Below the pieces are notes generated by a model that worked only from the letters and a program-made list of their open reading frames with translations, ran no database searches and was not told the DNA's origin. Both the position numbers and the translations under genes were made by a program. Of a stretch of DNA of 64,000 nt, positions 5,212 through 63,754 are shown one piece after another. Numbering within the stretch: the stretch's first letter is position 1; each line of letters begins with the position of its first letter. The DNA comes from Nitrospira sp. GTDB lineage: Bacteria > Nitrospirota > Nitrospiria > Nitrospirales > Nitrospiraceae. The DNA is taken from NCBI GenBank assembly GCA_024760545.1, contig CP060501.1:1339501-1403500 (forward strand). Reading direction: 5' to 3'.

Positions 5212-5337
5212 CAAGCTGCTCAAAAAGTCCTTCCGGCAAGGCCGCAAGGAGTGAGGACCCCGAGGCGTACGCGTGTTGGTACGCTGAGGGGTTCGAACGA
5301 CTGAGAACGCAGCGGGAAGGCTTTTTCAGCAGCTTGT
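5212..5337 (+). repeat. 126-bp palindrome-ended dispersed repeat, copy A
   Basis: The element is bounded by near-perfect inverted ends, CAAGCTGCTCAAAAAGTCC on the left and its complement-like GGCTTTTTCAGCAGCTTG on the right. The core (AAGGCCGCAAGGAGTGAGG, CGAGGCGTACG, then GAGAACGCAGCGGG) matches copy B at 5544-5669, which has the same length but lies in the opposite orientation. Copy A lies between the T-box terminator and the leuA ribosome-binding site, 17 nt before the start codon. It would therefore form a long hairpin in the leuA mRNA leader. No target-site duplication is visible. It carries no ORF, so it would be a non-autonomous (MITE- or REP-like) element. Confidence 0.85.
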
Positions 5338-5380
5338 AAAACAAAAGCCTTCATCCCATCGCAAACAGGGACGAAGGCTT
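5338..5380 (-). terminator. Intrinsic terminator of the leuA T-box
   Basis: The minus strand reads AAGCCTTCGTCCC, a short loop, GGGATGAAGGCTT, then TTGTTTTA. This GC-containing stem with a T-rich tail begins right after the T-box motif at 5389-5403. The 5' arm can alternatively pair with the T-box region to make the antiterminator, the standard T-box arrangement. Confidence 0.85.
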
Positions 5381-5543
5381 GACGCGCTCCGTGGTACCAC
5401 CCTGATTCAGCCTGAAGATGTTCAGGCCCTTCATTTGCCTCTTACGGAGACAAGACGGAATCTCCTACTTCATGTTCGGAGATTCGGCTCAGAGGCGAGT
5501 TCGGCGACGTTTAGGCTGGTTTGCACCATCCACCAGCTCTCTC

Positions 5544-5669
5544 CAGAATGTTGAAACCGGTTCCCCGCTTCGTTCTCGCATCGTTCAAAGGCTCAACGTA
5601 CATCTACAACCGTACGCCTCGTCTTTTCACTCACTGCGGCCTCGCTGGATAACCGCTTTTAACATTCTG
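5544..5669 (-). repeat. 126-bp dispersed repeat, copy B, inside T-box Stem I
   Basis: Read on the minus strand, the element begins CAGAATGTTAAAAGCGGTT and ends AACCGGTTTCAACATTCTG, so its ends are inverted and can pair. Its core (AGGCCGCAGTGAGTGA, CGAGGCGTACG, TTGAACGATGCGAGAACG) aligns with copy A and with the copy near 63.65 kb. It has exactly the same 126-bp length as copy A. It falls between the 5' strand and the apex of T-box Stem I. Because its ends pair, it could stack out as an extra hairpin without breaking the T-box core. Confidence 0.85.
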
Positions 5670-5748
5670 TTATTCTAGACTGCTCGCGTACTACTCCTCG
5701 TCTTAGCCGTTCATGAGAATTCCAGTTCCTCCCGTCGATTGTTCGCAG

Positions 5749-59599: not shown

Positions 59600-59720
59600 A
59601 GGGCTGTGCGGCGGCCTTCTTTTAGGTTTGTGCCGGAGAAGGCCGCCGCAATTGAAGAAGCGAGGCGTACGTTGTTCGGTGTGTCGAGTTTCTGAGTAAT
59701 GCGGGAACGAAACCGAAGGA
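59600..59720 (+). repeat. Degenerate copy of the dispersed repeat, copy D
   Basis: The segment GAAGCGAGGCGTACGTTG and the later GAGTTTCTGAGTAATGCGGGAACGAA match the repeat core of copies A-C. The left arm is replaced by a 13-bp inverted repeat (GCGGCGGCCTTCT at 59608-59620 and its complement at 59637-59649). It lies in the short space after a lipoprotein gene on the opposite strand. Confidence 0.6.
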
Positions 59721-63570: not shown

Positions 63571-63754
63571 CAAGCTGCGAAAAAGCTATTTGGTGCTGTC
63601 AGAGATGTACAACCATAGAAAGTCTAGAGCCGACTCACGAAGGGCCGCATCGAGCGAAGAGGCGAGGCGTACTCCGGGCTGTACGTTGAGCCTCTGAGCG
63701 ACGCGAGAACGAAGCTGGCAGGACTTTTTCAGCATCCTGCCAGGATGCTGAAAA
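63571..63754 (+). repeat. Dispersed repeat, copy C, with an adjoining palindrome
   Basis: The left end resembles AGCAAGCTGCGAAAAAGC. The core at about 63645-63715 (GGGCCGCATCGAGCGAAG, GGCGAGGCGTACTC, GAGCGACGCGAGAACGAAGC) matches copies A and B. The right end GGACTTTTTCAGCATCCTG is directly followed by its own complement, CCAGGATGCTGAAAA (palindrome 63726-63754), as if a second terminal end abuts it. It is longer than copies A and B. Confidence 0.7.

Follow-up and report, generated by a model that had tools for sequence, protein, structure and literature searches.

A typical T-box upstream of leuA was reported for Geobacter and Pelobacter in a 2008 survey (PMC2494555). A review gives AGAGA and UGxRA as the consensus sequences of the two T-loops that make up the tRNA-elbow platform of T-boxes, and it describes every domain of the T-box as subject to curious insertions whose structure and function are unknown (PMC7583486). 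In pneumococci, the two T-boxes of the trp leader have a BOX repeat between them, and RNA-seq is consistent with continued function (PMC3049150). This is the nearest precedent found for the locus described here: the literature search, in which coverage of subscription journals was mostly lacking, yielded no published case of a dispersed repeat lying in T-box Stem I, in line with the initial annotation of this DNA, which knew of no mobile-like repeat in a T-box stem. The same search gave nothing on T-boxes in connection with Nitrospira and nothing relevant on repeats inside riboswitches.

In the window, that is, the whole 64,000-nucleotide stretch of Nitrospira sp. DNA that was analysed, the gene order on the minus strand is pssA (6555-5749), the leuA leader and leuA (5194-3647), the last being a 515-aa ORF for 2-isopropylmalate synthase located downstream of the T-box and found in 76 of 79 genomes of the genus (E <= 1e-150). 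Among named records sharing this leuA protein, the nearest is the metagenome assembly Nitrospira sp. BO4. The leader begins with Stem I and ends in the U-run of its intrinsic terminator (5338-5720, minus strand, as are all leader features below), as delimited by the match to Rfam family RF00230, the minimum free energy (MFE) fold and the sequence. In the MFE fold of the whole leader, the 5' strand of Stem I (5670-5708, linker included) pairs with 5514-5486; it comprises GGCU (5708-5705, paired with AGCC at 5489-5486), the AGUA side of the specifier loop (5695-5689), the GUCUAG helix (5680-5675) and, next to it, the AAUAA linker. The specifier codon CUC (Leu; 5497-5499) is embedded in GAACUC, which is present in all 99 leaders compared, and the cognate tRNA-Leu(GAG) gene is encoded in the same genome (G000:C1:2431766-2431846). 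Sequence and published consensus (PMC7583486) assign AGAGA (5538-5542) as the first T-loop of the elbow platform. The apical hairpin GCUGG...CCAGC (5515-5537), recognised from the sequence, the RF00230 alignment and the same source, carries in its loop UGCAA (5525-5521), which fits the second consensus, UGxRA. Further downstream are the T-box sequence AGGGUGGUACCACG of the antiterminator (5390-5403; RF00230 alignment, 98 of 99 leaders) and the intrinsic terminator AAGCCUUCGUCCC...GGGAUGAAGGCUUUUGUUUU (5338-5380; sequence and fold). Taking into account the covariance-model match, the specifier with its cognate tRNA and the presence of both T-loops, the leader is a leucine T-box, an RNA switch of the type that senses uncharged tRNA-Leu; a search of the genome found no other. 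The T-box core of L042 (and L078) has UGGUAACAC in place of UGGUACCAC, which is possibly an assembly error or an altered antiterminator.

Exactly 126 bp (5544-5669) interrupt Stem I of this leader between the GUCUAG/CUAAAC helix with its five-base linker and the AGAGA T-loop, which lies 1 nt 3' of the insert. The insert starts with CAGAATGTT at 5669 and stops with AACATTCTG at 5544; its assignment as an inserted hairpin repeat is based on a 122-bit match to the repeat model R1 described below and on graded alleles in relatives. Its ends pair, and the 126 nt folded alone form a single hairpin of -46.3 kcal/mol (z -4.6), a stability reached by 1 of 200 shuffles. The initial annotation had described a 126-bp element with pairing ends lodged inside Stem I, and its coordinates proved exact on the minus strand, as did the position and the pairing of the ends. 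A chance inverted repeat is ruled out by the dispersed copies, the hairpin stability relative to shuffles and the pairing within the family.

The RF00230 match itself (5574-5364, minus strand) scores 83.2 bits (E 1.6e-18) and falls short of the gathering score (93); the reason is that the model aligns the 3' arm of the insert (5574-5544) as the 5' strand of Stem I, whereas the true 5' strand (GGCUAAGACGAGGAGUAGUACGCGAGCAGUCUAG) lies upstream of the match, at 5708-5675. In relatives lacking the full element, leader scores range from 80 to 102 bits and lie on either side of the gathering score. The reduced score of the full form could be taken as a sign that the insertion has broken the T-box and left leuA either constitutive or terminated. 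This is very unlikely, since the low score is an alignment effect, the specifier, both T-loops, the antiterminator and the terminator are intact in all nine full leaders, and full leaders persist in species with up to about 19% divergence in leuA DNA.

The predicted fold of the leader contains 43 pairs within the element and none between the element and the T-box. Stem I is drawn around the element, with a base helix, the specifier loop, the GUCUAG/CUAAAC helix and a junction from which the repeat arm and the apical hairpin emerge. The fold of L034 is similar save for four crossing pairs, while in L043 Stem I is non-canonical both with and without the element, the removal of which keeps all pairs outside it. 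In the window's own leader, by contrast, the rest of the predicted structure changes when the element is taken out (32 of 81 pairs are shared), and Stem I is accordingly not fixed by the energy model on its own. GGUG is also intact in 9 of 9 full leaders, and the same is true of AGUA, AGAGA and the T-box core, motifs that also served to locate the leaders. On this basis, Stem I is predicted to form a three-way junction in which the GUCUAG/CUAAAC helix is the lower limb and the elbow-binding hairpin the upper one, while the repeat arm branches off on the 5' side. The modelled arm would leave the tRNA contacts free, as anticipated by the initial annotation, which had suggested an extra hairpin sparing the contact sites. 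Since both T-loops (AGAGA and UGCAA), CUC, the antiterminator and the terminator are intact, recognition of tRNA-Leu(GAG) by the switch is most likely preserved.

The insert belongs to a family of dispersed repeats. BLAST locates 25 insert-like copies in the 4.81-Mb genome (E <= 1e-3), and a family covariance model (R1), built from 14 copies and giving rough E-values, yields at least 34 matches at E <= 1e-5, with 60 candidates scored per genome. Between 7 and 60 R1 matches are present per sampled genome of the genus, in all but two, and members also occur elsewhere in the order, in further genera and families. Their length is about 122-127 bp. Among 41 members from other sites, 95.2% of the cells are standard pairs and 24 of the 41 pairs display changes on both sides; this maintained pairing indicates that the hairpin belongs to the repeat family as such. 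The flanks tend to have CCCG before and YTAG after the element. Target duplication is absent in 28 of 32 copies, the remaining ones having 2 or 4 bp, and the repeat matches no Rfam family. A Y1 transposase (PF01797) was searched for in the window's own genome without a match, controls giving matches in 5 of 14; mobilisation by a REP/RAYT system was consequently rejected. Dispersed copies, terminal inverted repeats and the lack of coding sequence, which are features of a MITE, are all present. Owing to the missing target duplication (28 of 32 copies) and Y1 transposase, the element is nevertheless termed a dispersed palindromic repeat and filed neither as a MITE nor as a REP. Of the earlier designation as a mobile-like repeat, the dispersed character is thus borne out by the copy counts, whereas mobility is only inferred: neither a target duplication, in 28 of 32 copies, nor a Y1 transposase was found.

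A second family member with different arms lies in the opposite orientation (5212-5336, plus strand; R1 98.4 bits, E 2.3e-20), past the T-box terminator and ahead of the ribosome-binding site of leuA. The copy of G012 at this site is 95% identical and other copies 74-82%. Elsewhere in the window, R1 matches further members at 63616-63739 (68.4 bits) and 59639-59711 (46.4 bits). In L159, L160 and L161 (genomes G088, G028 and G062), a repeat copy is situated about 1.5-1.9 kb upstream of leuA on the opposite strand, 83-87% identical to the leuA element; it apparently represents one shared site and exhibits compensatory arm changes between species.

The same position was compared in 99 distinct leuA leaders of the genus, most of the genomes being metagenome assemblies. 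The site is empty in 57 leaders, where three to six bases separate the helix from GAGAGAG; 28 leaders carry a hairpin of about 19 nt, five an insert of intermediate size (60-77 nt) and nine the full element (about 126 bp). The initial annotation had pointed to sister genomes as the place to look for an empty-site allele, and the 57 such alleles rule out a regular leader component shared by all relatives; nor is the insert devoid of copies elsewhere. On the leuA DNA tree, one group of 41 rows and 41 species (SH-aLRT 93) has no empty member and comprises the 28 short, the nine full and four of the five intermediate forms. The insert is therefore more than a one-species curiosity, being present in full, shortened or hairpin-only form across this group. 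Full forms are found in single-contig or near-complete genomes (G000, G024, G018). One clade of four leaders, with strong support, unites the full forms L034 and L138 with L075, which retains 69 nt, and L074, a 20-nt form made up of just the two ends (CAGAATGGGCAACATTCTG); this is a direct reduction series. The fifth intermediate form, L090, falls outside the 41-species group as sister to 14 empty leaders; its shortened element occupies the same Stem I spot in an otherwise empty lineage and possibly reflects an independent insertion.

The short insert is almost constant in length, with a 7-bp stem and a 5-nt loop, and in many species its 3' half is the element end (AACATTCTG). Across 24 sequences, 89.3% of the cells pair, versus 33-56% with a slid partner. 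Both-side changes affect four of the seven pairs, a number reached by 23 of 500 shuffles, and nine cells, compared with 2.8 in shuffles and a value as high in 1 of 500. The covariation of the short hairpin is real but moderate.

With regard to history, the divergence of the short inserts tracks that of the fourfold-degenerate sites of leuA (0.10 rising to 0.53). Full copies differ by 0.02-0.17 substitutions per site versus 0.32-1.17 at fourfold sites (ratio 0.05-0.28), and two close full-copy pairs, on which the argument from full-copy rates rests, give ratios of 0.74 and 3.1 (3 and 8 differences), about the neutral rate. No base pair with both-side changes occurs among the nine full copies at the leuA site. 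Full and short forms are interspersed on the leuA tree, and they remain so on the tree of the T-box flanks, which agrees with it; leader-wide recombination of full alleles is consequently unsupported, and no donor or exchange tract was directly seen. In a 23-row subclade, an upstream T accompanies five of five full alleles versus three of 18 others (Fisher p 0.0017), and this linked base hints at a short exchange tract. L035 and L079, distant on the leuA tree, have flank and element variants in common.

These data are probably best explained by an order-wide repeat that has become an arm of Stem I through an old insertion, a kept hairpin and a later exchange of full alleles. The main alternative, constrained vertical inheritance, is rather doubtful: it holds that the full element descends from one ancestral insertion and has been maintained by purifying selection because it functions within the T-box, the short forms being repeated, independent deletions. 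In its favour, the full leuA copies are each other's closest relatives and in several pairs are more conserved than the surrounding T-box, and a real reduction is seen within the L074/L075/L034/L138 clade. It would require, however, 14 independent reductions on the leuA tree, most of them converging on about 19 nt with shared derived bases such as CAGGG, versus seven acquisitions if the short form is ancestral, and the two close pairs evolve at about the fourfold-site rate rather than under constraint. An active repeat that transposed afresh and independently, each time into a preferred site, would account for the shallow, star-like divergence of the full copies and for the copy of L090 at the same spot outside the group. 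This is nonetheless improbable, and transposition from other genomic copies is disfavoured, because genomes with a full leuA copy hold no other copy above about 82-87% identity; the window's own genome also has no Y1 transposase, and 28 of the 32 copies lack a target duplication.

The alternatives overlap, since the arm could be neutral under either history. It is possible, although we consider it unlikely, that the repeat is a hitchhiker: the junction would point away from the tRNA, so that extra sequence is tolerated, and neither hairpin nor repeat would have a role. The motifs and the predicted fold are indeed unaffected, and insert sizes differ widely in close relatives (e.g., L043 full, L044 short). 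Against this stand the total absence of empty sites in the 41-species group and the stem pairing maintained as the sequence changes, although avoidance of misfolding could also explain the latter.

In the favoured explanation, a repeat would have inserted near the base of the 41-species group, shrunk to the hairpin of about 19 nt and been inherited in this form, kept as a stem through compensatory changes. Full-size alleles would later have returned in several lineages, having spread or been regained at this one position; related leaders probably exchanged short tracts, rather than the element transposing afresh from elsewhere in the genome. Old insertion, reduction and regain of full alleles are here inferred from comparison of present-day alleles. 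At the RNA level, the repeat would constitute an autonomous third arm of Stem I. A bolder version can be put forward only tentatively: the repeat was built in as a new structural arm whose reduced form, the hairpin, is subject to selection in dozens of species and adjusts tRNA binding or folding, and full copies were repeatedly restored at this very junction by exchange between species.

Collectively, the leuA leaders provide a natural series within one riboswitch, from empty sites through inserts of about 19 and 60-77 nt to about 126 nt. This makes the acquisition of peripheral domains by structured RNAs, and the question of whether repeats supply them, directly testable and offers one concrete origin for unexplained T-box insertions; it also implies that Rfam thresholds can miss repeat-interrupted switches. 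For the insertions mentioned in the T-box review (PMC7583486), neither a dispersed-repeat origin nor an allelic series turned up in the literature consulted. MITEs and REP-like palindromes (PMC10969869, PMC3733652) have in common with the Nitrospira repeat that they are short, non-coding and dispersed, with inverted-repeat ends and a strong hairpin; the latter differs in being a palindrome over its whole length, absent from Rfam, mostly without target duplication and without a Y1 transposase. With the T-box of Geobacter and Pelobacter (RF00230) the leader shares a full Stem I with AGUA, CUC and the AGAGA and UGxRA T-loops, as well as Stem III, the antiterminator and the intrinsic terminator, to which Nitrospira adds a repeat-derived arm at a three-way junction just 5' of AGAGA. 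As in the pneumococcal leader, where the switch is thought to be still working, the T-box RNA is transcribed together with a dispersed repeat that forms a hairpin; whereas BOX lies between two complete T-boxes, the Nitrospira repeat is located inside Stem I itself.
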